In this document: positions 17,929-48,768 of the stretch, piece after piece
How the letters are laid out: the number at the start of each line of letters is the position of its first letter
Numbering within the stretch: the first letter of the stretch is position 1
Assembly: GCF_011193355.1 (NCBI RefSeq)
Contig: NZ_CP049780.1
Location: forward strand, 693,686-757,685
DNA length: 64,000 nucleotides
Reading direction: 5' to 3'
Source of the DNA: Streptomyces sp. JB150
GTDB lineage: Bacteria > Actinomycetota > Actinomycetes > Streptomycetales > Streptomycetaceae
Notes under the pieces: model-generated
Databases searched by the model: none
The model's input: only the letters and a program-made list of their open reading frames with translations
What the model was told of the DNA's origin: nothing
Made by a program: the position numbers and the translations under genes

Positions 17929-18696
17929 TCACTCGTGCACCAGCCCCACGGAGTGGGCCAGCTGGGCCACCGCGTGGCGGAAGAACGGTTCGCGGTCCTC
18001 GACGACCCGGTTGAACTGGCCGAAGACCTCGAAGCCGACCAGCCCGAACAGCTGCGCCCAGGCCGCGACCAGCACGGCCACGACCTCCGGCGGGAGGTCG
18101 GGGGCGAGGTCGGCGGCGATGCGCTCGGCCTCGGCGCGCAGCCCGGCGGGCAGCGGGGTCCTGGCGACGCCCTTGCCCCGGTGGGCGTCGCGCACGATCC
18201 GGATGAGGAGGTGTCCGACGCGGGCGGCGGGCGGGACGGTGGCCTGCGGGGCGGTGTAGCCGGGCACGGGCGAGCCGTAGATCAGGGCGTACTCGTGGGG
18301 GTGCGCGAGCGCCCACGCGCGCACCGCCTCGCACACGGCCGTCCAGCGCCGTACCGGTCCGGCGTCGGCCACCGCGTCGTGCGCGGTCTCGGCGGCCTCG
18401 CCGAGGGAGTCGTAGGCGTCGATGATGAGCGCGGTCAGCAGGTCGTCGCGGCTGGGGAAGTAGCGGTAGAGCGCGGAGGAGACCATGCCGAGTTCCCGGG
18501 CGACCGCGCGCAGGGAGAGCTTGGCGGCGCCGTCGACCGCGAGCTGCCGGCGGGCCTCGCCCTTGATGGCTTCCGTGACTTCGATCCGGGCTCGGGCGCG
18601 GGCACCGCGCGGGGCGCTGGGGGCGTTGGGGGCGCTGAGGGCATATCGCGGGGCGCTCGGGGTGGCGCTCGCGCCTGCCGTGTCGCTGCTGCTCAT
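17929..18696 (-). CDS. TetR/AcrR-family regulator
   Basis: A 255-residue repressor. After a 40-residue Ala/Pro/Ser-rich start comes a TetR helix-turn-helix: IKGEARRQLAVDGAAKLSLR, AVARELGMVSSALYRYFPSRDDLL. The C-terminal half has a TetR_C-type core (WALAHPHEYALIYGSPVPGY). The divergent neighbour is a deazaflavin-dependent reductase and the 308-nt gap between them is filled with a repeated operator-like sequence, so it most likely represses the reductase and itself. Start ATG 18696; a shorter N-terminus cannot be excluded. Confidence 0.85.
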   Translation of the reverse strand: MSSSDTAGASATPSAPRYALSAPNAPSAPRGARARARIEVTEAIKGEARRQLAVDGAAKLSLRAVARELGMVSSALYRYFPSRDDLLTALIIDAYDSLGEAAETAHDAVADAGPVRRWTAVCEAVRAWALAHPHEYALIYGSPVPGYTAPQATVPPAARVGHLLIRIVRDAHRGKGVARTPLPAGLRAEAERIAADLAPDLPPEVVAVLVAAWAQLFGLVGFEVFGQFNRVVEDREPFFRHAVAQLAHSVGLVHE

Positions 18697-18720
18697 GGCG
18701 GCAGTCTCCCATGGATATGG

Positions 18721-18905
18721 GAGCGGTGCACTGAAACGAGAGCAGTGCACGCGAACGAGAGCAGCGCACGCGCGTGAGAGCAGCGCACACGTCCGAGAGC
18801 AGCCTCGCGAACGAGATCGGCGCACACATTCGAGATCAGTGCTCTTGCTTTGGATCAGCGCTCTCGTGCACACTGCTCACAACCGAGAGCACTGCTCACA
18901 CTAAC
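18721..18905. repeat. Tandem array of ~19-bp TetR-operator-like half-sites
   Basis: The gap 18697-19004 holds units of the form GAGAGCAGYGCACRCG starting at 18738, 18757, 18776, 18795 and 18813 (spacing 19, 19, 19, 18), preceded by a weaker copy at 18721 and followed by copies at 18832 and 18885. The copy at 18885, GAGAGCA-C-TGCTCAC, is a near-perfect 15-bp palindrome; the copy at 18832 is a two-mismatch version. The other units keep one half and have lost the partner half. Inverted copies (AGCGCTCTCG) occur near 18858. Confidence 0.8.
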
Positions 18906-19004
18906 GCTGACGCCCAGCTCACACTCACGGCGGCGCCCGCCCAAGGTCGCGCCCGCACCCACGCTCCACCCATGACCCACACCCCACCCACGACAGGGGG
19001 AACC

Positions 19005-19469
19005 ATGTCCACCCACGTCCGCAAGCCCGGCTGGCTCACCGTCAACGTCATCAACCGCGCCGTCGCCTGGCTGACCCGCCGCGGCCTCAGCGTCTGGGGC
19101 TCCCGCGTCCTCGCCGTCCGCGGCCGCAAGAGCGGCGAGTGGCGGACCACGCCGGTGAACGTGCTGACCGTGGACGGCGGGCGGTATCTCGTCGCGCCGC
19201 GCGGGCACGTCCAGTGGACGCACAACATGCGCGCGGCGGGCGGCGGCGAGCTGCGTCTCGGCCGGACCGTGGAGGCCTTCACCGCCACCGAGGTCGCCGA
19301 CGACGACAAGCCGCCGCTCCTGCGCGCCTACCTGAAGCGGTGGAAGGCCGAGGTGGGCGTGTTCTTCAACGGCGTCGGCCCCCACTCCCCCGACGCCGAG
19401 CTGCGCCGTATCGCCCCCGACCACCCCGTCTTCCGCATCGAGACGATTTCCGTCAGGACGACGAGCTGA
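19005..19469 (+). CDS. Deazaflavin (F420)-dependent nitroreductase-family protein
   Basis: A 154-residue split-barrel protein of the DDN/F420-binding nitroreductase family. Diagnostic stretches are VRGRKSGEWRTTPVNVL, GRYLVAPRGHVQWTHNMRAAG and the C-terminal DHPVFRIE. Members reduce quinones, nitro compounds or other electron-poor substrates with F420H2; the natural substrate is rarely known. The ATG at 19005 follows AGGGGGAACC, a good ribosome site. Its end overlaps the convergent flavoprotein gene by 17 nt. The repeat array upstream and the divergent TetR gene suggest tight repression. Confidence 0.87.
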   Translation: MSTHVRKPGWLTVNVINRAVAWLTRRGLSVWGSRVLAVRGRKSGEWRTTPVNVLTVDGGRYLVAPRGHVQWTHNMRAAGGGELRLGRTVEAFTATEVADDDKPPLLRAYLKRWKAEVGVFFNGVGPHSPDAELRRIAPDHPVFRIETISVRTTS

Positions 19470-46790: not shown

Positions 46791-48638
46791 ATGACCAACG
46801 CCGAATCCGTGCGGGTGCGCCCGTACGCGGGGGCCTTCGCCGCCGTGATCGTGCTCCAGGTCCTCGGCGCCGTGGCCGGGCTCGCTCCGCTGTACGCCAT
46901 CGTGGAGCTGGGCCGCGCCCTGCTCGCGCCCGGTCCGGTCGACGACGGCCACGTCCGGTTCGTCGTGGTCGCGGGCGTGGCGGGCCTGTTCGTCCGGCTG
47001 CTGTTCACCGCGGCCGCGGCAGCCGTCGGTCATCTGCTGGACGGGCGGGTGCAGCTGGCGCTGCGCCGCGCGCTGGCGGCACGGCTGGGGCGGGTGCCGA
47101 TGGGCTGGCTGTCCCGCCGCCGCAGCGGTGAACTGGCCAGGCTGGTGGGCGAGGACGTCGGCGCCGTCCATCCGTTCATCGCCCACACCCCCGGCGAGCT
47201 GGCGTCGGCGTTCGTCGTGCCGCTGGTGTCGCTGGTCTACCTGTTCACCGTCGACTGGCGGCTGACGCTGATCACGCTGGTCCCGGTGGTCGCGGCGGTG
47301 GCGCTGGTCCCGCTGATGATGACCCCGGCCCGGTTGCGCGAACAGGCCGACTTCGACACGGCGGTGACGCGGATCGCCGGTGCGGCCGTGGAGTTCGTCC
47401 AGGGCATCGCGGTGGTCAAGGCGTTCGGCGGGGGCGAGCGCGCCCACCGCGCGTTCCGCGCCGCCGCCGACGACTTCGTCGCCGCCTTCCGTCGCTGGGT
47501 GCACGGGATCTCCCCGGTCGCCGCGGGGATGCAGCTGGCGCTGTCACCCCCGTTCGTGCTGCTGACCGTGCTGCTGGGCGGAACCGCACTGATCACCGGC
47601 GGCGGCCTGGCCCCGGCCGATCTGCTGCCGTTCCTGCTGCTCGGACTCGGGCTGACCGCGCCCGTGGCGGCGCTCGGGCACGGTTTCGACGAGGCGCAGG
47701 CCGCCCGCCGCGCGGTCGGCCGGATCCGCGAGGTTCTCGCCGTGGAGCCGCTGCCGGAGCCGGCGCGGCCGGTCGCGCCGCGCGGCCACCGGGTGGAGCT
47801 GCGGGGCGTCCGCTTCGCCTACGACCCCGGCCACGAGGTGCTGCGCGGGATCGACCTCGTGCTGGAGCCGGGGACGGTCACCGCACTCGTCGGGCCGTCG
47901 GGCAGCGGCAAGTCCACGCTGGTGCGGCTGCTGCCGCGGTTCGCCGACCCGACCGGCGGCTCCGTCCGCCTCGGCGGTGTCGACCTGCGCGAGCTGGGCA
48001 GCCGCGAGCTGTACCGGCGGGTGTCCTTCGTCTTCCAGGACGTCCGCCTGCTGCGCGCCTCGGTCACGGACAACATCGCGCTGGCGGTACCGGACGCCGG
48101 CCCCGAGGAGGTGGCGCGCGCCGCCCGGCTGGCCGGCATCCACGAGCGCGTGCTGGAACTGCCGTACGGATACGACACGGTGATCGGCAAGCACGCCCGG
48201 CTCTCCGGCGGCGAGGCGCAACGGATCGCGCTCGCCCGGGCGTTGCTGGCGGACACGCCGGTCCTCGTGCTCGACGAGGCGACCTCGTTCGCCGACCCGC
48301 ACACCGAGCGGGCGGTGCGCCGCGCCCTGGAGACGGTGCGGGGCGACCGTACGGTCCTGGTCATCGCCCACCGGCTGGAGACCGTCCTCGGCGCCGACAC
48401 CGTCGCCGTGCTGGAGGACGGGGTCGTCGTGGAGCACGGCAGCCCGGCCGATCTGCTCGCCGCCGACGGGGCCTTCGCCGCGCTGTGGCGCTCGCGCCGC
48501 GCGGGGGAGGCGGCGGTCCCCGGGACGGCGGAGACGGAGGCGGCGGAGACGGAGACGGCGGAGGCGGTGGTCCGGGAGGGGGCGGTCCCGGAGGCGGCGG
48601 AGGCGGTGCTCCAGGAGAGGGCCGGTGAGCGGCGGTGA
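46791..48638 (+). CDS. ABC half-transporter (permease-ATPase fusion), first subunit
   Basis: A 615-residue exporter subunit: six helices in residues 15-290, then a nucleotide-binding domain with Walker A GPSGSGKST, signature LSGGEAQR, Walker B VLVLDEATSF and H-loop IAHRLET. It pairs with the following gene as a heterodimer, similar to siderophore-type IrtAB/YbtPQ exporters or importers. ATG 46791 has GGAAG upstream. The last 40 residues are a Glu/Ala/Thr repeat (from GGCGGAGAC-type DNA repeats) ending at a TGA (48636). The frame downstream of this stop keeps coding-like composition, so the tail may once have been longer. Confidence 0.88.
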   Translation: MTNAESVRVRPYAGAFAAVIVLQVLGAVAGLAPLYAIVELGRALLAPGPVDDGHVRFVVVAGVAGLFVRLLFTAAAAAVGHLLDGRVQLALRRALAARLGRVPMGWLSRRRSGELARLVGEDVGAVHPFIAHTPGELASAFVVPLVSLVYLFTVDWRLTLITLVPVVAAVALVPLMMTPARLREQADFDTAVTRIAGAAVEFVQGIAVVKAFGGGERAHRAFRAAADDFVAAFRRWVHGISPVAAGMQLALSPPFVLLTVLLGGTALITGGGLAPADLLPFLLLGLGLTAPVAALGHGFDEAQAARRAVGRIREVLAVEPLPEPARPVAPRGHRVELRGVRFAYDPGHEVLRGIDLVLEPGTVTALVGPSGSGKSTLVRLLPRFADPTGGSVRLGGVDLRELGSRELYRRVSFVFQDVRLLRASVTDNIALAVPDAGPEEVARAARLAGIHERVLELPYGYDTVIGKHARLSGGEAQRIALARALLADTPVLVLDEATSFADPHTERAVRRALETVRGDRTVLVIAHRLETVLGADTVAVLEDGVVVEHGSPADLLAADGAFAALWRSRRAGEAAVPGTAETEAAETETAEAVVREGAVPEAAEAVLQERAGERR

Positions 48639-48768
48639 CGGCGCACGGGCACCGAGCCCGCCGATCCCCCGGCGCCCGCTGATCCCGCGAAGCGCATCGA
48701 CCGCATCGCGCACACCGAGCCCATCGAGCCCACCCAGCCCACCGAGCCCACCGAGGAGACCACCCCAG
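48639..48768 (+). repeat. Repetitive segment between the two ABC genes
   Basis: Between the stop of the first ABC gene and the ATG of the second lie 9-bp near-repeats CCCACCGAG (48712-48755). Read in the frame of the first gene it gives TEPADPPAPADPAKRIDRI and TEPIEPTQPTEPTEET with almost all third positions G or C; read in the second gene's frame it is a Ser/Pro-rich extension with many A-ending codons. Confidence 0.6.

Follow-up and report, generated by a model that had tools for sequence, protein, structure and literature searches.

The window analysed here is a 64,000-nucleotide stretch of the Streptomyces sp. JB150 genome (contig NZ_CP049780.1; the genome coordinate minus 693685 gives the window position). 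Within it, a gene encoding a TetR-family repressor (17929..18696, minus strand) and a gene of the F420H2-dependent quinone reductase/deazaflavin nitroreductase family (19005..19469, plus strand) diverge from a gap at 18697-19004, and domain matches bear out both flanks as an earlier note on this DNA had named them. The repressor has an N-terminal TetR helix-turn-helix domain (TetR_N, PF00440, 41 bits against a cut-off of 24, E 1.6e-10) and a C-terminal ligand domain (TetR_C_33, PF13305, 98.1 bits against a cut-off of 26.8, E 5.5e-28), and its helix residues S73 to F80 (SSALYRYF) are invariant across 25 aligned sequences. The reductase matches F420H2_quin_red (PF04075, E 1.6e-10) and TIGR00026 (54.5 bits, cut-off 46.35). 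The divergent gene order and the conserved operator-like sites that the two genes share mark the locus as a divergent module, in which the encoded TetR probably binds the sites in the gap and the reductase gene is probably its target.

The gap holds a tandem array of ten units at 18719-18899, all given on the plus strand; the array of at least seven copies, 18-19 bp apart, that the earlier note had claimed is therefore real. The pitch is 19 bp except for one 18-bp step, after a broken unit at 18795, and one 15-bp step at the presumed core of the reductase promoter. Closest to tetR is unit A1 (GGGAGCGGTGCACTGAAAC, 18719..18737), which differs from GAGAGCAGYGCAC at no more than two positions, and the next three units (18738..18756, 18757..18775, and 18776..18794) match GAGAGCAGYGCAC exactly. 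The fifth unit, of 18 bp (18795..18812), has a broken right half, and the sixth (18813..18831) again has at most two mismatches to GAGAGCAGYGCAC. Two core operators follow, both within two mismatches of GAGAGCAGYGCAC: O1 (GAGATCAGTGCTCTTGCTT, 18832..18850), which is kept genus-wide, and O2 (GAGAGCACTGCTCAC, 18885..18899), the best dyad of the array. Between them, within the promoter core, lie the weak units O1' (18851..18865) and O2' (18866..18884), the latter starting 15 bp after the former. Tandem Repeats Finder also calls the array, at period 19 (score 69) and period 37 (score 105). Seven sites in the gap match at 11/12 or better, against a mean of 0.05 and a maximum of 2 in 1000 dinucleotide shuffles, and six pairs of sites have a spacing of exactly 19 bp, where the shuffles average 0.019 such pairs. 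Only four places in the rest of the window score as high (at least 11/12), and each is solitary. A cluster of overlapping tandem repeats of 9-54 bp lies at 48502-48755.

Candidate promoters for both genes overlap or adjoin the array. A putative reductase −35 element, TTGCTT (18845-18850, plus strand), lies inside O1, and a putative −10 element, CACACT (18869-18874, plus strand), lies inside O2' after an 18-bp spacer; it is their conservation that suggests a promoter role. For tetR, a candidate −10 element, GAGACT (18703..18708, minus strand), was read by eye about 6 nt before the ATG, a position from which the tetR transcript may be leaderless, and a CACACT-like hexamer to the left of unit A1 recurs in many aligned loci. 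A strict sigma-70 scan picked up neither the candidate tetR hexamers nor those of the reductase.

Unit structure and conservation

The unit consensus, GAGAGCA-S-YGCWCNC, is an asymmetric imperfect palindrome whose left half is conserved more than its right. When we compared interior units chosen by phase alone (55 units in 19 arrays, 64 within-array pairs), agreement was highest in the left half (positions 2-5; 0.85), lower in the right half (positions 9-12; 0.64), and lowest at the centre (0.51) and in the spacer (0.48). Taken together, the eight core positions agree at 0.75 versus 0.48 in the spacer, although the right half exceeds the spacer by only a modest margin and position 11, at 0.48, does not exceed it. 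In six arrays found elsewhere in chromosomes the corresponding values are 0.86 and 0.46, a comparison biased by the fact that these arrays were found via the core motif. The asymmetry is thus real across the genus, but the earlier description of most copies as keeping one half only was overstated, since the units are imperfect palindromes: eight of the ten window units keep 3-5 of the seven dyad pairs, O2 at 18885 keeps six, and the unit at 18795 keeps none. Bare half-sites were set aside as a description, though not fully refuted; interior units average 3.31 dyad pairs, compared with 0.80-2.36 in slid registers, except that the register one base to the left gives 3.15, and the centre is not sharp in GCGC-rich units.

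Among the 81 named Streptomyces regions, window included, the O1 consensus is GAGAGCA-S-TGCTCTTGC (78 regions) and the O2 consensus GAGAGCA-S-YGCTC(A/T)C (77 regions). The units upstream have the same left half. In their right half the G/C positions are retained, but positions 11 and 13 are mostly A where the core operators have T; these sites were picked on positions 0-12, and position 13 onward played no part in their choice. In A1 the frequency of A is 0.87 at position 11 and 0.95 at position 13 (62 regions), and in interior units chosen by phase only it is 0.58 and 0.45 (74 units). From this pattern we infer that the right half of A1 presumably also serves as the tetR −35 region and that A1 is the likely ancestor of many interior units. 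In G017, the nearest relative (TetR 91-92% identical), the extra units instead lie downstream of O2 and carry its right half. Because A1-type and, in that genome, O2-type right halves recur in extra units, the asymmetry of the unit looks like ancestry as much as function.

Distribution and turnover of the array

All of the best 80 of 301 Streptomyces relatives have at least two matches of 10/12 or better. Steps of 19, 38, 57, or 76 bp occur in 70 of these 80, nine more have only the core step of 51-59 bp, and one (L015) has neither. Adding further loci from the genome search and the window itself gave 133 same-genus candidates, from which five duplicates of the same region were dropped; 127 of the resulting 128 distinct tetR upstream regions carry 2-14 units and the remaining one (L132) carries a single unit, whereas two or more units occur in only four of 128 base-shuffled regions. 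Among more distant homologs, 50 of 53 distinct regions have 2-6 units and the other three (L154, L183, and L177) have one site. Steps of exactly 19 bp make up 290 of 498 in Streptomyces and 51 of 103 in the more distant homologs, and 108 of 134 upstream units lie at exact multiples of 19 bp from O1. These strict counts understate degenerate arrays; in two loci (L086 and L087) the matches cover some 450-490 bp. The arrays are not only assembly artefacts, because the loci include records described as complete (L024 and L054). At the other extreme, some loci have only two units, and long arrays are therefore not needed for the module.

Two observations concern pairs of units in other settings. 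In a distant actinomycete (L225, 1488-1536), a homolog with 43% identity adjoins an F420-type reductase gene and has two operators 48 bp apart, an arrangement that is likely a minimal form. Three IMG/VR viral contigs (L272, L273, and L274) have two strong operator-like units at a spacing of 19 bp and may make use of a host repressor.

The number of units changes quickly. It differs in 16 of 21 pairs of loci whose TetR proteins are at least 90% identical, with a mean difference of 1.95 (the pairs are not independent), so an array fixed in all strains, which the earlier note had named as refuting its reading, is not what is seen at the species level. One locus (L096) contains exact recent copies of the unit and two others (L061 and L086) contain 38-bp double repeats, and both support growth of the array by tandem duplication.

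Such turnover, together with broken units, a weakly kept right half, and exact recent copies, would also be expected of a mostly neutral satellite in which only O1, O2, and A1 function and the rest is slippage debris, the pitch being kept since duplication copies whole units. A neutral minisatellite should diverge evenly over the unit, and what we found is the uneven pattern of core and spacer described above; this speaks against neutrality because neutral decay should hit all 19 positions alike. The phase is also kept despite divergence of the spacer. We consider a mostly neutral array decidedly unlikely. The combination of a fixed pitch and core with a free number and spacer is the expectation for adjacent protein-binding sites. 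Even so, the array could be partly a relic, because many interior units are weak or broken, as at 18795 here, the right half is only modestly kept, and position 11 fares no better than the spacer.

Association with the tetR ortholog

We compared 37 same-genus genomes for the joint presence of the O1 pattern and the tetR ortholog. The pattern lies beside tetR in all 26 genomes that have the ortholog, and it is matched in two of the 11 genomes that lack it (in G006, where the match is inside a gene, and in G018). The sites also follow the helix of the protein. Of 74 homolog rows, four were set aside because the helix was not covered, leaving 70: strict upstream sites occur with 46 of the 47 homologs that have an SSA-x-YRY helix (the exception is L183) and with one of the 23 that have other helices (L203, one site; two genes are entered twice among the 23). 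Across actinomycete genera the motif thus accompanies the tetR ortholog and its recognition helix, which supports the identification of the units as probable TetR operators, first suggested in the earlier note. This tie is a correlation, and helix and operator also share ancestry.

The same data bear on whether some other DNA-binding protein is the main ligand of the array, with the tetR locus as one of its targets. Arrays without an adjacent tetR do exist, and two genomes that lack the ortholog contain one each, short in G006 and decayed in G002. Against this, the array co-occurs with the tetR ortholog and its recognition helix, and one case only adds to this: in the gap between an MBL-fold gene and crp (L229 2176-2422 and L233), which holds an array in two of 30 genomes looked at, G021 has the ortholog and keeps 13 phased units, while its near-sister G002, whose Crp is 99% identical, has no ortholog (best match 39% identity) and a decayed array. 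A different main ligand is, in our judgement, very improbable.

Arrays elsewhere in the chromosome

We ran the tandem-pair pattern on 61 genomes; the counts are a minimum, and the listed pairs were inspected in part. The same unit at the same pitch occurs far from tetR in at least four of 37 same-genus genomes, including the window's own, and two other genomes have a short array (G006) and a decayed one (G002). G021 has arrays of 14 units (contig C18), 13 units (C15), and about 15 units with two 17-bp steps (C13); G014 has one of 10 units (C13); and G017 has one of about 8 units (C346) and another of over 10 units, partly N (C980). Intergenic arrays with no adjacent tetR in these three genomes lie at L228 2204-2473, L230 1884-2169, L232 1900-2089, and L234 1958-2180. 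Rough gene calls place the arrays between convergent neighbours in L229, L232, L236, and L212, and in L233 by its likeness to L229; the neighbours are in tandem in L228 and L230 and divergent in L234, and L235 is at a contig end. In the window's own genome, the second array (G000:C1:6096368-6096480; L212 1069-1181) consists of six operator-like units at 19-bp pitch within what by eye is a decayed xdhC-like reading frame, a setting that would suit a neutral satellite; the array in L235 (G017) follows a gene like the SRPBCC-type neighbour of this second array. As a control for spacing, periods from 13 to 41 were allowed in five genomes, and of 47 forward pairs 31 were at 19, 8 at 38, and 8 elsewhere. 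A control with the reversed pattern was near zero, a test that is unfair to coding DNA.

These arrays are unexplained by plain promoter control. They would fit a titration sink, in which the extra units, above all the dispersed arrays, soak up TetR and set its threshold while O1 and O2 alone control the promoter. Same-pitch arrays far from tetR in G021, G014, G017, and the window's own genome point this way, as does a positive correlation between the number of units at the locus and that of tandem pairs elsewhere (Spearman 0.57, p 0.002, 26 same-genus genomes, uncorrected for kinship and coding pairs). In a nearest-neighbour lattice model with assumed affinities, which serves as an illustration and not a fit, 48 extra weak sites cut the occupancy of O1 strongly when a cell has 5-20 dimers but only slightly when it has 50. 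Yet dispersed arrays occur in a minority of the 37 same-genus genomes, and a sink next to the promoter would also raise the local TetR concentration, which has the opposite effect. On balance, we regard titration as the main role as unlikely.

Operator-like sites in the window's own genome were also considered as a possible regulon and rejected: among the matches listed, 11 places were examined, and only L212 is an array. Seven of the others (L207-L211, L213, and L214) fall within long reading frames and are apparently coding, L215 resembles a tRNA gene by eye, and L216 and L217, examined as regulon sites, gave nothing clear. Two of the coding places contain operator-like sites 19 bp apart that recur in several species, one in a Gfo/Idh/MocA-like gene (named by eye; L209, G000:C1:2073539-2073628) and one in another reading frame about 4 kb away (L208, 2069819-2069850). 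We treat these pairs as a coding coincidence because they are also found in genomes without the tetR ortholog.

Discussion

We put at roughly 60% the probability that the array is a set of tandem operators of the adjacent TetR, binding one dimer per unit, side by side at a fixed pitch, and lengthened repeatedly by tandem duplication. The sequences themselves show the unit, the pitch, their conservation, their tie to the ortholog and its helix, and their turnover. Each 19-bp unit, a 15-bp imperfect palindrome plus a 4-bp spacer, would take one TetR dimer. Because the presumed reductase promoter carries two conserved strong operators and the presumed tetR promoter carries one unit, TetR would repress both genes of the divergent pair. 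Within Streptomyces, repeated rounds of tandem duplication would have added weaker units between these anchor operators or next to them, again at a pitch of 19 bp, a spacing at which dimers on adjacent units could make contact. Dimers bound side by side would keep the promoter operators more fully occupied and make their release by ligand sharper, and array length would be an evolvable setting of the TetR response. We infer the promoters, the binding, the dimer contacts, the repression, the cooperativity, and the sharper response.

The lattice model illustrates what contacts could add. Without them, extra sites affect O1 only by acting as a sink. A contact factor of 50 lowers the half-point and raises the slope from 1 to about 3.2 at six units, and a factor of 10 takes the slope to about 1.7; the response sharpens with array length only if neighbours cooperate. 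More tentatively, the operator may behave as a spreading satellite. Its 19-bp dimer sites would multiply locally, and some lineages would also have gained whole arrays of at least 10 units in intergenic DNA elsewhere; these would serve as sponges for TetR or as docking platforms on the chromosome, setting the response threshold, and would persist only while the repressor does.

Several TetR-family systems offer comparisons. The target of EthR is a divergent oxidoreductase. EthR of M. tuberculosis binds as an octamer, with several dimers on one operator (Engohang-Ndong 2004, by its title as cited in PMC3511530 and PMC6657595), and ten phased units likewise leave room for several TetR-family dimers to share one gap. 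Unlike the one long operator of EthR, the array here consists of separate palindromic units spaced exactly 19 bp apart, whose strict count ranges from 2 to 14 between species, with further arrays elsewhere. In S. coelicolor, three perfect repeats of one 15-bp TetR palindrome lie between the divergent genes SCO7222 and SCO7223 and give three EMSA shifts (PMC3511530). This gap too belongs to a Streptomyces TetR and repeats a single 15-bp palindrome between divergent genes, but the copies number three, the palindrome is another, and the portion of that account drawn on here describes no variable array or 19-bp pitch. The TetR-family proteins SlmA and RefZ have several chromosomal sites, bind as adjacent subunits, and spread on DNA in vitro (PMC6657595). 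Sites at several chromosomal places are a shared feature; a landmark of the SlmA/RefZ kind implies many sites with positional bias, and what we observed are the arrays in at least four of 37 same-genus genomes and the short or decayed ones in two others. SlmA and RefZ act on cell division, whereas nothing links the TetR of this array to division.

Multi-dimer binding or spreading on DNA is thus known for EthR, QacR, HlyIIR, SlmA, and RefZ (PMC3511530, PMC6657595), and multi-dimer TetR operators and a three-operator Streptomyces gap are not new. What appears to be new is a genus-wide variable array accompanied by dispersed arrays; in the open-licence literature we found no description of a TetR operator array of variable length across a genus with arrays elsewhere. 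The locus provides a natural series of one repressor, one unit, and one pitch in 2 to 14 strict copies over more than a hundred Streptomyces upstream regions. Such a series would permit tests of operator number against repression, cooperativity, and repressor titration, for which earlier decoy work, as far as the sources drawn on here describe it, used synthetic sites. The dispersed arrays also raise the question of how a bacterial chromosome comes to accumulate copies of a transcription-factor site.

The comparison with solved relatives included no EthR-named sequence among the 49 matches listed. The nearest by sequence are Rv1816 (5d1r, E 4.2e-35) and SCO4313 (2oi8, E 3.2e-26), for which, unlike the locus here, no operator array is described in the part of the review drawn on (PMC6463170). 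According to the same review, palmitate lowers DNA binding by Rv1816, which by analogy hints that the ligand of this TetR could be fatty-acid-like.
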